Assembly: GCA_035550055.1 (NCBI GenBank)
Contig: DASZRO010000018.1
Span: 1 to 64,000, forward strand
Source of the DNA: Mycobacteriales bacterium
GTDB taxonomy: Bacteria; Actinomycetota; Actinomycetes; JAFAQI01
Length of the DNA: 64,000 nucleotides
Direction: 5' to 3'
The stretch's first letter is position 1. Each line of letters begins with the position of its first letter. The translations under genes were made by a program, and so were the position numbers. Shown here one piece after another: positions 29,925 through 53,639 of the stretch. The notes under the pieces were generated by a model. It worked only from the letters and a program-made list of their open reading frames with translations. It was not told the origin of the DNA and made no database searches.

Positions 29925-31244
29925 CTACTTGGCGGCGCCGCGGGCCGCTTCCCGCTGGAAGTCGCGACGGGGGTCCGCAAACGTGCCCAAGGAGACGATC
30001 TCGCGTCGGAAGAACAGCGCAAGGGTCCAGTCGAGCACCACTCGGAACTTGCGGTTCAAAGTCGGCACTCGCAGGAGGTGATAGGTCCGGTGCATCCACC
30101 ACGCCGGCAGGCCCCGCAGCTTGATGCCGTACACCTCCGCCACTCCGCGATGCAGACCCAGGCTTGCGACCGACCCCGCATATGCGTGGCGATACTGGCG
30201 CGGCTGCTTGCCCCGCAGGACAGCGACGATGTTGTCGCCGAGTTGCTTCGCCTGCCGTACGGCGTGCTGCGCGGTCGGGCCGCACAGCGCGTCAGGCGAG
30301 TCCTTGGTCACATCCGGCACTGCGGCGCAGTCGCCCGCAGCCCAGGCGTCGGGGGTGTCCACGACACGGAGGTCGGCGCGACAACGCACCCGCTTGGCGT
30401 CGTCCAGCGGCAGGTCGCTCGATTCGAGGAGCGGGTTCGGCCGGACACCGGCGGTCCAGACGATCGTGTCCGCGTCGAACTCCGACCCGTCGGAGAGCAC
30501 CACATGACCGTTCTCGAGCGATTCGACCTTGGTGTCCAGCCGGACTTTGATGCCCTGTTTCTCGAGCTGTCGGACGGTGTACTCGGCCATGTCCAGACTC
30601 ACTTCGGGCAGGATGCGCCCGGTTGCTTCGACCATCGTCCAGTGCATGTCGTCCGGCGACAGCGACGGGTAGGACCGGATCGCGTCTCGCGCCATGTCTT
30701 CGAGCTCGGCGATCGCCTCGACACCGGCGTAGCCCCCACCTACGAAGACGAAGTTCAACGCGCGCTTGCGGATCGCGGCGTCATCGGTCGCGGCGGCGAG
30801 ATCGAGTCGGGACAGCACCCGGTTGCGCAGGTAGATCGCCTCCGCCGCCGTGCGGAAGGCAATCCCGGTCTCGGCCAAACCAGGAATCGGCAACGTCCTC
30901 GCCACCGATCCGAGTGCGACGACCAGGACGTCGTAGCCGACCTCGCGTTCTTCTCCGGCATCGGGTCGGAAGCACACCCGCCGCGCCCCATGGTCGATCG
31001 AGGTGACGGTCCCGACCAGCACCTCGCACTTGTTCAACACTCGGCGCAACGGCACCACCATGTGTCGCGGCTCGAGGTTGCCTGCTGCCGCTTCCGGCAG
31101 AAAGGGCTGGTAGGTCATGTAGGAGTTCACGTCGATCACGGTGACCTTCGCTTCGTCCCGACCGAGCCGCCGCTGGAGTCGCAGCGCGGTGTACATGCCG
31201 ACGTAGCCGCCGCCGACGATCACGATCCGAGTCTGTGTGGACAC
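29925..31244 (-). CDS. ndh: Type II NADH:quinone oxidoreductase
   Basis: A 439-residue flavoprotein that passes electrons from NADH to menaquinone at the membrane face without pumping protons. There are two dinucleotide-binding folds: FAD site IVIVGGGYVGMYTALRLQ (7-24) and NADH site FVFVGGGYAGVEAIAELE (about 169-186), with AWAAGDCAAVPD closing the FAD site. The C-terminal amphipathic region (GLPAWWMHRTYHLLRVPTLNRKFRVVLDWTLALFFRR) is the membrane anchor of NDH-2 enzymes. The GTG start follows a TAGGTA-like -10 at 6 nt. It diverges from the MFS gene. Confidence 0.9.
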   Translation of the reverse strand: MSTQTRIVIVGGGYVGMYTALRLQRRLGRDEAKVTVIDVNSYMTYQPFLPEAAAGNLEPRHMVVPLRRVLNKCEVLVGTVTSIDHGARRVCFRPDAGEEREVGYDVLVVALGSVARTLPIPGLAETGIAFRTAAEAIYLRNRVLSRLDLAAATDDAAIRKRALNFVFVGGGYAGVEAIAELEDMARDAIRSYPSLSPDDMHWTMVEATGRILPEVSLDMAEYTVRQLEKQGIKVRLDTKVESLENGHVVLSDGSEFDADTIVWTAGVRPNPLLESSDLPLDDAKRVRCRADLRVVDTPDAWAAGDCAAVPDVTKDSPDALCGPTAQHAVRQAKQLGDNIVAVLRGKQPRQYRHAYAGSVASLGLHRGVAEVYGIKLRGLPAWWMHRTYHLLRVPTLNRKFRVVLDWTLALFFRREIVSLGTFADPRRDFQREAARGAAK

Positions 31245-31335
31245 CGTTGGTACCTACCCGTGCCTGTGGATGAGATGCGACGCGATCAGTGTGACTCTGC
31301 GCACGATGGCAGTCCGCAACCTCAGGGGGCCAACC

Positions 31336-49444: not shown

Positions 49445-50283
49445 TGCCAGCCGAAGACGCGAGCCGCGTTGGCCGTCACGGCGGCGGCGATCTCCGCCTC
49501 GTCCACGCCCTTGACGTCGGCGATCGCGCGGACGGTCAACGGCACAAGGTACGGCGCGTTCGGCGCGCCGCGGTACGGCATCGGGGTCAGGAACGGCGCG
49601 TCGGTCTCGACGAGCAGCTGGCCGAGGGGGGCGACCGCCGCCGCATCACGCAGGTCTTGTGCGTTCTTGAAGGTGACGTTGCCGGCGAAGGACATCACGT
49701 AACCGCGGTCGGCGCACTTGCGGGCGAACTCGGCGTCGCCGGAGAAACAGTGGAAGATCACCCGGTCGGGCGCTCCCTCGCTCTCCAGCACCCGCAGCAC
49801 GTCCTCGTGGGCGTCGCGGTCGTGGATCACCACCGCCTTGCCCGTCTGCTTGGCGATCGCAATGTGACGGCGGAAGGACTCCTCTTGCGGCCCCCAGCCG
49901 GCATCCTCGGTGCGGTAGTGATCCAGCCCGGTCTCACCGATCGCCACGACGCGATCGTGCGCGGCGAGGCGCGCGATCTCGTCCCACTCGGCCTCGCTCG
50001 CCGCGTGCGCCTCGTTGGGGTGCACCGCGACGGCCGCCCACACGTCGTCGCGCGAGCCGGCAAGATCGACGCTCCACCGCGACGACGGCACGTCGATCCC
50101 GATCTGCACGACGCGGGTGATGCCGACTGCGCGCGCCGCCGCCATGATCTGCTCGACGTCGCCGTCCATCAGGTCGAGATGACAGTGGCTGTCGATCGCC
50201 GCAGCGGCGAGTGCGGGCGGGGCCGGTGGCGGCTCCCCGGTTCGGCCGGACTTCCGCTCTCGGCCGGACGCCGAGACGCTCAC
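49441..50283 (-). CDS. tatD: TatD family metal-dependent DNase
   Basis: A 280-residue TIM-barrel metallohydrolase. Metal ligands: [14 protein letters not shown] at the start, [31 protein letters not shown] and [20 protein letters not shown]. TatD proteins have 3'-5' DNase activity and a possible role in DNA repair or quality control of RNA ends. The N-terminal 28 residues are disordered. The GTG start overlaps the metG stop by 4 bp (GTGA), so metG-tatD-ksgA are translationally coupled. Confidence 0.93.
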
Positions 50284-52067
50284 GCGCCCTCCAATCGGGC
50301 CAGCTCCTCGTCGACGACGCCGACGTCGAGCTTCGCGAACAGCGGTGTCGGCGGCTCGACCGGGTTGCCGACCTTCAACGGGTCGCGTTGCCATCGAACG
50401 TCGCTGCGGTAGTCGCCGGTCAGGATCGGGTACGCCGGACCGCCGTCGAGGTCGTCGACCTCCCGCAGCTCGGGCTGCGCAGCGAGCACGCCGTCCCGGC
50501 CGAGCAGCTGGTGCACCTGTTGCGACGTCTGCGGCAGGAACGGCGCCAGCAGCGTCGTGCAGTCGCTGACCGCCTGGAGCGCCACGTGCAGGATGGTCGC
50601 CATCCGGTCGGGCTGCGACTCGCGCAGCTTCCACGGCGCCTGCTCCGACAGGTACTTGTTGGCCTCGGCCACGACTCGCATCGTCTCGCTGAGCGCCGCC
50701 CTCATCCGCGACCGTTCGAGGTCGGCGCCGACCGCTGCGAACGCGCCGTCGGTGACGCCGAGCAGCGCACGGTCGACGTCGGTGAGCTCCCCGGCGGCCG
50801 GCAGCGAGCCGAGGTTCTTGGCCGTGAAGGACAGGGTGCGGTTGACCAGGTTGCCCCACGCCGCGACCAGCTCGTCGTTGTTGCGTCGTACGAACTCCGA
50901 CCAGGTGAAGTCGGTGTCGTTGGACTCCGGACCGGCGGCGGTCAGGTAGTAGCGCAGCGAGTCAGCGGAGTAGCGGTCCAGGAAGTCCCGGACGTAGATG
51001 ACGACGGCGCGACTGGAGGAGAACTTGCGGCCCTCCATCGTGAGGAACTCACTCGACACGACCTCGGTCGGCAGCTGGAGCTGCCCGTACTCGCCGGGCG
51101 TGCCGCCCTTGGCCCCGAGGCCGTCGTAGCCGAGCAGCTCAGCCGGCCAGATCTGGGAGTGGAAGGTGACGTTGTCCTTGCCCATGAAGTAGAAGGACTC
51201 CGCCGCCGGGTCGGTCCACCAGGCGCGCCACGCGTCCGCGTCGCCGCTGCGCCGAGCCCACTCGATCGACGCCGACAGGTAGCCGATGACGGCGTCGAAC
51301 CAGACGTAGAGCCGCTTCGTCGGGTTGTCCTCCCAGCCGGGCAACGGGATCGGGACACCCCAGTCGATGTCGCGACTCATCGCGCGCGGCTTGAGGTCGT
51401 CGATGAGGTTGAGCGAGAACTTCAAGACGTTGGGTCGCCAGTCCTTGCGGGTCTGCAACCACGAGCCGAGCGCGTCGGCGAGCGCCGGCAGGTCGAGGAA
51501 GAACTGCTCCGTCTCGACGAACTGCGGCACCTCGCCGTTGATCCGTGACCGCGGGTTGATCAAAGCGTCGGCGTCGAGCTGGTTGCCGCAGTTGTCGCAC
51601 TGGTCGCCACGGGCGCCGTCGTACCCGCAGATCGGGCAGGTGCCCTCGATGTAGCGGTCGGGCAACGTGCGCCCGGTCGACGGCGAGATCGCGCCCTTGG
51701 TGGTGCGCTCGATCATGTAGCCGTTGCGGTGCAGGGTGCGAAACATCTCCTGGACGACGGCGTAGTGGTTGCGGGTCGTCGTGCGGGTGAACAGGTCGTA
51801 GGACAGCCCGAGCCGCTGTAGGTCCTCGGCAATCACCCGGTTGTAACGGTCGGCGAGCTCGCGCGGCGTCACGCCTTCCTGGTCGGCCTGCACCAGGATC
51901 GGCGTGCCGTGCTCGTCGGTGCCGCTGACCATGAGGACGTTGTTGCCGGCGAGGCGGTGGTAGCGGCTGAAGACGTCGGACGGTACGCCGAAGCCCGCGA
52001 CGTGGCCGATGTGCCGCGGGCCGTTCGCGTAGGGCCACGCCACCGCGGCAAGGATCTGGCGCGACAT
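50280..52067 (-). CDS. metG: Methionyl-tRNA synthetase
   Basis: Charges tRNA-Met. The 595 residues form the class I catalytic domain (HIGH = H19-I-G-H22 in [15 protein letters not shown]) with a zinc knuckle C144, C147, C157, C160, and the second signature as [11 protein letters not shown], a KFSSS variant of KMSKS common in actinobacteria. The anticodon domain follows and there is no C-terminal tRNA-binding extension. The ATG lies 7 nt after a TAGGCT box, implying a leaderless mRNA independent of the RNA unit upstream. Confidence 0.97.
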
Positions 52068-52074
52068 GGATCAG

Positions 52075-52080
52075 AGCCTA
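52075..52080 (-). promoter_or_regulatory. -10 box of metG, leaderless
   Basis: TAGGCT on the minus strand, 7 nt upstream of the metG ATG. It follows the terminator at 52155-52191, so metG is a separate transcription unit from the upstream RNA. Confidence 0.5.
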
Positions 52081-52154
52081 TTCACGCTCGCACGCCGAAA
52101 TCGTCCGCGCGAGTGTCGCAGCCGGGCAGGGCGGGGAAAAGCAGCGAAAATAGC

Positions 52155-52191
52155 GCGAAGCCCCTCCGTGTATGAGACGGAGGGGCTTCGC
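52155..52191 (-). terminator. Strong intrinsic terminator of the ncRNA unit
   Basis: A perfect 15-bp stem (52155-52169 with 52177-52191, core GCGAAGCCCCTCCG/CGGAGGGGCTTCGC) and a 7-nt loop. Read on the minus strand it is followed by GCTATTTTCGCTGCTTTT, the most T-rich tail of any hairpin in the window. No protein gene directly precedes it. Confidence 0.85.
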
Positions 52192-52581
52192 TTCGAATCC
52201 TTGCTGCACCGGCGAAGCCGACCGATCAACCAGGGTCGATCACTCGACTGCCGTGCGTTGCAAGAACTCGGACTCCGGTCCTGAGGACCCGCGCGATGCC
52301 CCGCTGCCACCACGCTCCAGTTGCCCGGAACAGGTGGACCGCGACGCGGCCCGGTCGCCCGAACCGCTCGCTCCGCGCCTCGACTGGTAGCCCTAGTTGC
52401 CTAGGAGCCAGCCGCCTCGCGTCGCGTCGTACCTGGCGTTTCCGGATCCGATCTCCTGGTTGCCCAGGGGCTCGGCTCCGACTGCCCGAGTACGTCACAC
52501 CCTGTTGCCAAGGTGCTTTGCATCTTGCGTTGCTTCGGGTTCCCGAAGGCCCCCTCCGCGTGGTCTCCGTTTCCGGTGACA
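52155..52581 (-). ncRNA. Candidate structured non-coding RNA between rsmI and metG
   Basis: About 430 nt without a credible ORF, ending in a strong minus-strand terminator. Read on the minus strand, four hairpins carry a GCAA (GNRA) tetraloop: CACCTTG-GCAA-CAGGGTG (52498-52515), CCTGG-GCAA-CCAGG (52455-52468), CCTAG-GCAA-CTAGG (52392-52405) and TCCGG-GCAA-CTGGA (52316-52329). Three of these also have an outer 4-bp stem beyond a small internal loop. Other stems are GGTCC-TCA-GGACC (52277-52289) and CTTCGG-GAAC-CCGAAG (near 52533-52548). GNRA loops form only on this strand, matching the terminator. It does not resemble RNase P RNA, tmRNA or 4.5S RNA as I know them. The exact 5' end is inferred. 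Confidence 0.6.
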
Positions 52582-52587
52582 GACGGA

Positions 52588-52616
52588 TTTGTAGTGGGTA
52601 GCCGGGGGTAGCACAA
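52588..52616 (-). promoter_or_regulatory. Possible promoter of the ncRNA
   Basis: On the minus strand TTGTGC (52616-52611) and TACAAA (52593-52588) are separated by exactly 17 nt. Both boxes are imperfect. The predicted transcription start is near 52581. Confidence 0.35.
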
Positions 52617-52627
52617 GAGGTTTCCAG

Positions 52628-52741
52628 AAGTATTTTCAAGATCTTTTTTCGTGCACAGCCATGTCCACAACCGCAGCCGGGTTGTCCCCCGAAATGGCTG
52701 TCGACGCACCGGTAATCCACCGGTTCATCCCCAGCTGGGGA
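52628..52741. other. AT-rich tract with degenerate DnaA-box-like sites
   Basis: 52628-52650 is an AT-rich run (AGTATTTTCAAGATC followed by six T) in a GC-rich genome. Next to it are ATGTCCACA (52661-52669, one mismatch to the mycobacterial TTGTCCACA box), and weaker TTGTCCCCC (52682), TAATCCACC (52713) and TCATCCCCA (52725). A perfect 14-bp palindrome TCCCCAGCTGGGGA (52728-52741) adjoins the rsmI stop. This could be a protein-binding regulatory region for the ncRNA; it is not the chromosomal origin by context. Confidence 0.3.
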
Positions 52742-52750
52742 AACCCTTGC

Positions 52751-53584
52751 TCAGGCCAAAGAACGTGTGGCGGCGTCGTAGACGACTCGCCGTGACAGGC
52801 CGTGAGCGACGGCAACCGCGTCGACGGCATCGCGGCGGCTGGCACCCGCCGCGACCAGCTCGCCGACCTCGTCGCGCAAGGCGGCAGGGTCGACCGTCGC
52901 CGGCGTTCGCTGAGCACCGGCGATCACCAGGGTCACCTCGCCGAGCACCTCGGTCCCCGCGGCCCACGCCGCGAGCTCGCCGAGCCGGCCGCGGCGCACT
53001 TCCTCGTGGGTCTTGGTCAGCTCGCGGCAGACGGCCGCCAGCCGGTCGGCCCCGAAGCCGGCCGCGAGGTCGGCGAGCGTCGCGGCCACCCGCTTGGGGG
53101 ACTCGAAGACGACGAGGGCACGAGGGTCGGCGGCCAGCTCGGCGAGCCGCGCTCGACGCTCCCCCGCCTTGCGGGGCAGAAACCCTTCGAAGCACCACCG
53201 GTCGACGGGCACGCCCGCGACGGCGACCGCCGCGGTCACTGCGGACGGCCCCGGCAGGACCGTGACCGGCAGGTCACGTTCGATCGCGGCGGTCAGCATC
53301 TGGTAGCCGGGGTCAGACACGAGCGGTACGCCGGCGTCACTCACCAGCACGACCGTTCGCCCGGCAGCGACCGCATCGAGCAAAGCGCCGGCCCGGCCAC
53401 GCTCCACGGCGTCGTAGACGGCGACGACCTTGGCGGTGAGGGCGATACCGAGCGAGGACGCCAGCCGCCGCAGCCGTCGGGTGTCCTCGGCCGCGATGAC
53501 ATCTGCCTGGGTCAGCGCCTCGACCAGCCGCGCCGACGCGTCTCGCGCATCGCCGATCGGCGTCGCGGCGAGGACGAGCGGCAT
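52751..53584 (-). CDS. rsmI: 16S rRNA (cytidine1402-2'-O)-methyltransferase
   Basis: Methylates the ribose of C1402 in the 16S decoding centre. The 277 residues have the tetrapyrrole-methylase fold: MPLVLAATPIGDARDASARLVEALTQADVIAAEDTRRLRRL, VVLVSDAGVPLVSDPGYQ, VTVLPGPSAVTAAVAVAG and FEGFLPRKAGERR. I chose MPLVLAATPIG over an ATG 11 codons upstream. It diverges from the mannosyltransferase gene across 68 bp, the same arrangement as Rv1003/Rv1002c. Its stop borders the gene-free interval. Confidence 0.95.
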   Translation of the reverse strand: MPLVLAATPIGDARDASARLVEALTQADVIAAEDTRRLRRLASSLGIALTAKVVAVYDAVERGRAGALLDAVAAGRTVVLVSDAGVPLVSDPGYQMLTAAIERDLPVTVLPGPSAVTAAVAVAGVPVDRWCFEGFLPRKAGERRARLAELAADPRALVVFESPKRVAATLADLAAGFGADRLAAVCRELTKTHEEVRRGRLGELAAWAAGTEVLGEVTLVIAGAQRTPATVDPAALRDEVGELVAAGASRRDAVDAVAVAHGLSRRVVYDAATRSLA

Positions 53585-53639
53585 CGGACCATTCAACCGG
53601 TCGCCGCCCGCCGTCACGCCGCCACGAGGGGCGGCTTCA

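Follow-up and report, generated by a model that had tools for sequence, protein, structure and literature searches.

A candidate structured RNA family of Actinomycetota with GNRA-capped arms and an upstream DnaA-box-like array, represented between rsmI and metG

The rsmI-metG interval and its features

Analysis of the window (the whole 64-kb stretch of DNA under study) showed that rsmI (52751-53617, minus strand) and metG (50280-52067, minus strand) bound an interval at 52068-52750. On its minus strand, this interval contained a promoter (52616-52588) and a terminator (52191-52155) with an RNA body of about 400 nt between them. The neighbours of the RNA gene were rsmI and metG, and the tRNAs of the window were located at 29.8 and 46.4 kb. 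Judged from its sequence, the minus strand of the gap carries a non-coding RNA gene that stands on its own, between a promoter and a terminator that belong to it. The following features, all on the minus strand, were assigned:

52611-52616, minus: -35 element TTGTGC, from sequence and the pattern TTGYGN-17/18-TA[GC]A[AC]A common to 91 related loci
52588-52593, minus: -10 element TACAAA, with a 17-bp spacer to the -35 element, from sequence and related loci
52150-52580, minus: predicted transcript of about 430 nt, its start placed from the -10 position and its end from the terminator
52573-52580, minus: P1 5' strand GUCACCGG; the helix covaries in relatives and the window copy keeps 6/8 pairs, from sequence
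52562-52568, minus: P2 5' strand GGAGACC, from covariation in relatives and sequence
52498-52517, minus: GCAA hairpin 1, from predicted fold and sequence, with compensatory changes against the same-genus member G001
52455-52470, minus: GCAA hairpin 2, from predicted fold and sequence, with compensatory changes against G001
52391-52406, minus: GCAA hairpin 3, from predicted fold and sequence
52349-52364, minus: GCGA hairpin 4, from predicted fold and sequence
52315-52330, minus: GCAA hairpin 5, from predicted fold and sequence
52283-52289, minus: P2 3' strand GGUCCUC, from covariation in relatives and sequence
52271-52278, minus: P1 3' strand CCGGAGUC, from covariation in relatives and sequence
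52194-52270, minus: 3' domain with a long stem, a conserved internal loop CAAC/AG and a GCAC/GUGC stem, from covariation in 28 relatives
52247-52236, minus: GUGA hairpin of the 3' domain, from covariation in 28 relatives
52155-52191, minus: intrinsic-terminator-like hairpin with a 15-bp stem, then GCUAUUUUCG; loop CUCAUAC at 52176-52170
52075-52080, minus: -10 box TAGGCT of a leaderless metG mRNA, outside the RNA gene, from family comparison

The minus-strand terminator, the promoter and the GCAA hairpins were all found where the first-pass annotation had placed them. The minus-strand fold (-265.4 kcal/mol) had a z-score of -8.1 against dinucleotide shuffles, and the plus-strand fold had a z-score of -3.4; in the predicted fold of the window copy, a local 5' hairpin competes with P1. 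In the window RNA, GNRA hairpins with a stem of 4 bp or more numbered 6 in the sense direction and 0 in the antisense direction; its shuffles contained 0.31 on average with a maximum of 3 in 200. Across 81 distinct RNAs of the family, 185 sense and 2 antisense GNRA hairpins were counted against 12 on average in shuffles, the loops being mainly GCAA, GAAA, GCGA and GAGA. Both counts agree with the minus strand, which had been read from the terminator and from the direction of the GNRA loops. The annotation had also given three of the hairpins one architecture; the 5-bp stems with GCAA loops were confirmed, while the outer stems and internal loops differed in the fold. The GNRA caps, proposed there as sites of tertiary docking, may instead stabilise the RNA or bind a protein.

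Covariation, terminator loop and spread of the family

A BLAST search with the rsmI-metG interval recovered relatives in the window's own genus, in other genera and in other families. In a sequence-only alignment of 12 compact members, 32/57 pairs had changes on both sides, and the covariation score was 0.332 (at most 0.095 in slid controls, 0/500 shuffles). For the 3' domain with the terminator, 26/33 pairs had changes on both sides and the score was 0.380 (at most 0.059 in slid controls) in 28 sequences, whose alignment was fitted to a covariance model and is hence biased towards the model's structure; the structure used in both tests was derived from members of the tested set. Of the 28 pairs in the consensus that RNAalifold produced on its own from the 12 compact members, 16 had changed on both sides. 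The helices backed by these members were P1, P2, the arms P3 and P4, and the 3' domain, and P1 pairs the 5' end of the RNA with the segment preceding the 3' domain. The fold predicted from these data is P1-P2 closing a junction of GNRA-capped arms, followed by a GNRA-capped 3' domain. Covarying stems, expected by the first-pass annotation of a genuine structured RNA, were looked for in relatives and found. A protein-coding reading was rejected, since relatives have in-frame stops and their transcript lengths fall into every residue class modulo 3.

The terminator loop CUCAUAC was constant across relatives (28 sequences) and its closing pairs covaried; most members were gathered with this loop in the query, so the cleanest tests of the loop are the BLAST relatives and a promoter-only search. 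The promoter-only pattern, which is too strict for estimating prevalence and is useful as a terminator-independent test, had 4 matches in 395 genomes, and 4/4 lay at a family RNA with a CUCAUAC or CUCAUGC loop.

The RNA was located between rsmI and metG in genera g1 and g2; in other genera it was found elsewhere, for example adjoining a CoA-transferase-like or an aquaporin-like gene (names from sequence), and flanking genes varied among the loci inspected. A covariance model of the 3' domain matched in 12/12 family genomes and 82/395 class genomes, with rough E-values and with weak scores driven by the terminator. Eight stretches around model matches were inspected; seven had weak scores (30-49 bits) and the eighth was L068 again. 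The same kind of terminator was present in 8/8 and the strict promoter pattern in 5/8; by eye, L249 had a variant -35 element and L246 a -10 element only. The terminator pattern, searched over named genomes, matched at least 119 stretches, nearly all from Actinomycetota by record titles. Among the matches listed were Frankiales, Jatrophihabitans, Geodermatophilaceae, Kribbella, Nocardioidaceae, Propionibacteriaceae, Streptosporangiaceae MAGs and Nanopelagicales, as well as two records carrying names of other phyla, and in 106 of the 121 pattern matches the upstream sequence held the promoter or two or more GNRA hairpins. We infer common descent of the whole RNA body across lineages, beyond promoter, terminator and GNRA arms; the bodies from Kribbella/Propionibacteriales and Nanopelagicales aligned poorly with the Frankiales type.

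Where a promoter could be recognised (91 loci), distances between the -10 element and the terminator clustered at 153-170 nt, with longer forms of 179-237 nt and up to 764 nt. The commonest form of the RNA was about 195-210 nt, and the window's RNA of about 430 nt is an enlarged form of this RNA of about 200 nt, its extra GNRA hairpins being placed inside the P2 junction. Between G000 and G001, both partners had changed in 9 pairs and a single partner in 20, with 19 pairs broken and 22 gapped, so the enlarged region evolves fast. In one family member, L252 (G020:C166, 593-838), tandem units of about 54 bp each carried a GNRA-capped hairpin, and the array extended beyond the stretch inspected. 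These units suggest that the number of modules grows by tandem duplication. At least two copies of the RNA were seen in tandem in L132 and L141, and in separate places in G019, G288, G304 and G351 (model or pattern matches).

The DnaA-box-like array upstream of the promoter

The consensus of the DnaA box for actinobacteria is TTRTCCACA. Between the promoter and rsmI, five 9-mers resembling it were found at 52649-52733, which is the densest such cluster in the window; the name DnaA box denotes a match to the consensus:

52649-52657, read on plus: DnaA-box-like 9-mer TCGTGCACA
52661-52669, read on plus: DnaA-box-like 9-mer ATGTCCACA
52682-52690, read on plus: DnaA-box-like 9-mer TTGTCCCCC
52713-52721, read on plus: DnaA-box-like 9-mer TAATCCACC
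52725-52733, read on plus: DnaA-box-like 9-mer TCATCCCCA

The start-to-start spacing of these boxes was 12, 21, 31 and 12 bp, and 4/5 had two mismatches to the consensus. Similar degenerate boxes were present in the genome's own dnaA-dnaN intergenic region. In most lineages the array was located just upstream of the -35 box. With at most one mismatch, the upstream-160 regions (14.2 kb in total) held 165 boxes and the other 552 kb of these loci held 80 (11.6/kb against 0.145/kb, about 80-fold). In 80 loci, box orientation was biased (290 against 65) and the commonest spacings were 12, 21, 11, 22, 20 and 32 bp, corresponding to one, two or three helical turns; 58/80 loci had 4-7 boxes with at most two mismatches and 8/80 had none. 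Taken together with the consensus matches, transcription of the RNA under DnaA control appears rather likely. The freshwater Nanopelagicales kept the RNA type with the array mostly absent, so such control cannot be universal. A fixed distance of the RNA gene from dnaA was not a general rule in complete genomes, the distance being about 0.23-0.32 Mb in four of genus g43 (taken as Kribbella) and 1.2-1.3 Mb in two of family f27.

Other sequences of this kind were also observed. Two DnaA-box-like 9-mers, GTGTCCACA and TCATCCACA, lay 29 bp apart elsewhere in the window (31236-31273, minus). Kribbella loci (for example L084 and L137, and also L094) had the palindrome GTTATGCACAGGGGGTGTGCATAAC, i.e. 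two inverted TTATGCACA boxes, upstream of the promoter. In L087, L089, L112 and L126, a conserved AAAGAATCTTGAA was situated between the DnaA-like boxes and the -35 element; it might be an UP element or a site for some other protein.

Possible roles and comparison with known RNAs

Rfam 15 covariance models gave no match above the gathering cut-off for the window copy, permissive search included, the best being the rnk leader with 26 bits against a cut-off of 55. For 14 other member loci (E up to 0.5), one tRNA was the only match. A published description of the family was not found in the literature searched, in which subscription journals were thinly covered. The first-pass annotation, which could not match the RNA to RNase P, tmRNA, SRP or 6S-type RNAs, had called it a candidate new structured RNA, and conservation, covariation and the Rfam result support this; the array, the constant CUCAUAC loop and the wide spread had gone unnoticed there. 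On the comparative evidence, a previously unlisted structured RNA family of Actinomycetota very probably exists. Spread over many actinobacterial families and absent from Rfam and from the literature searched, it would constitute a new RNA class, a claim that concerns the family and not its mechanism. Searches for intergenic RNAs by GC content work poorly in high-G+C genomes, a possible reason for the earlier oversight.

The best explanation, which we hold with fair confidence, is a trans-acting structured RNA, presumably a protein-binding scaffold, transcribed under DnaA control. DnaA would bind the upstream array and turn transcription up or down according to growth rate or the stage of the replication cycle. 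Because its neighbours vary, the RNA would act in trans, if at all; its GNRA-capped arms would serve as a scaffold for a protein or titrate it. The number of arms varies by lineage, the window copy having extra ones, and the CUCAUAC terminator loop could be a second recognition element. Taken on its own, the scaffold role is suggested by analogy and is tentative. It is conceivable, at a more speculative level, that a widespread DnaA-controlled RNA of actinobacteria links the start of replication with gene expression or with a partner protein, by means of the GNRA-capped arms and a constant U-turn loop. Actinobacterial control of replication initiation is less understood than that of E. coli, and a DnaA-controlled RNA would be one of the rare cases in which the initiator protein has an RNA as its output.

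A role as an RNA-polymerase-binding RNA, working like Ms1, 6S or CoRP though unrelated by descent and storing or titrating RNA polymerase in slow growth, is unlikely. The compact forms of about 195-210 nt are close in size to 6S and Streptomyces Ms1, the promoter is strong and sigma-A-like, and the family extends across the actinobacteria. As Ms1 and CoRP illustrate, RNAs of this kind can have very different sequences (PMC9130861, PMC11077062), and in the window's genome the HAD gene (L193) beside an ssd-like gene is followed by too little space for Ms1. However, G072 (family f27) had an Ms1-type motif at the HAD locus plus the family RNA elsewhere, which argues against simple replacement, and the RNA has a covarying multi-arm junction in place of a long hairpin with a central bubble. 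Quite unlikely is a reading of CUCAUAC as a YUNR/U-turn antisense loop pairing with GUAUGAG near start codons, or as a methionine-anticodon-like mimic for a Met-tRNA-binding protein. The loop stays constant while its closing pairs covary, the promoter-only search recovered it either identical or carrying G for A at position 6, and CU-CAU-AC resembles the methionine anticodon loop; however, most of the RNA would be superfluous for such a role, and among relatives examined only g1 and g2 members adjoin metG. The dense phased array might also be a DNA site of the datA or DARS kind that titrates DnaA, with adjacent transcription and not the RNA being important. This is improbable, since compensatory changes, one-strand GNRA loops and the conserved terminator loop indicate selection on the RNA, and the Nanopelagicales keep the RNA type although most of them lack the array.

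A metG leader, attenuator or riboswitch, suggested by the position directly upstream of metG in g1 and g2, can be dismissed, as the first-pass annotation had done, because that position in the metG 5' UTR is not conserved: in other family genomes rsmI is followed immediately by metG and the RNA is encoded at another place, and metG keeps its own leaderless -10 box (TANNNT at -12/-13 in 10/11 family genomes, with the RNA upstream or not; in the 11th, the metG match starts past the probable start).

Ms1 (MTS2823, scr3559; about 230-300 nt) is likewise an actinobacterial, free-standing, structured RNA with its own promoter. It adjoins a HAD hydrolase gene (PMC9130861); a position beside HAD hydrolase or oxidoreductase genes was not found for the family RNA in the loci inspected. 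The HAD/oxidoreductase intergenic region of G029, called Ms1 from its position so that its identity is presumed, had no CUCAUAC terminator and no evident sequence shared with the family RNA. Identity with Ms1 was rejected by position, by sequence and by the co-occurrence in G072, which also leaves a complementary distribution of the two unsupported. A 6C RNA (RF01066) adjoined the HAD-IB hydrolase gene in L193 (1250-1325, minus), L202 (1273-1348, minus) and L203 (2271-2340), a neighbourhood that is the place of Ms1 in other actinobacteria.

6S RNA (RF00013) is close in length to the compact form, but it is one long hairpin with a central bubble, whereas the family RNA is a multi-arm junction (P1-P2-P3-P4) with a separate 3' hairpin; with this covarying junction and no RF00013 match, 6S RNA was rejected. 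CoRP (516 nt) is also a long actinobacterial RNA from an intergenic region, but reports of it come from Corynebacterium alone, where tRNA genes flank it (PMC11077062), while the window RNA lies between rsmI and metG. GOLLD, ROOL, OLE, HEARO and raiA share an elaborate fold with the family RNA, and several of these large ornate RNAs are without known function; the family RNA has no Rfam match to any of them and its core is far shorter. Sponge RNAs of the CsrB/RsmY type resemble it in that hairpins with the same type of loop are repeated a varying number of times, the loops being GGA in CsrB/RsmY and GNRA in the family RNA.
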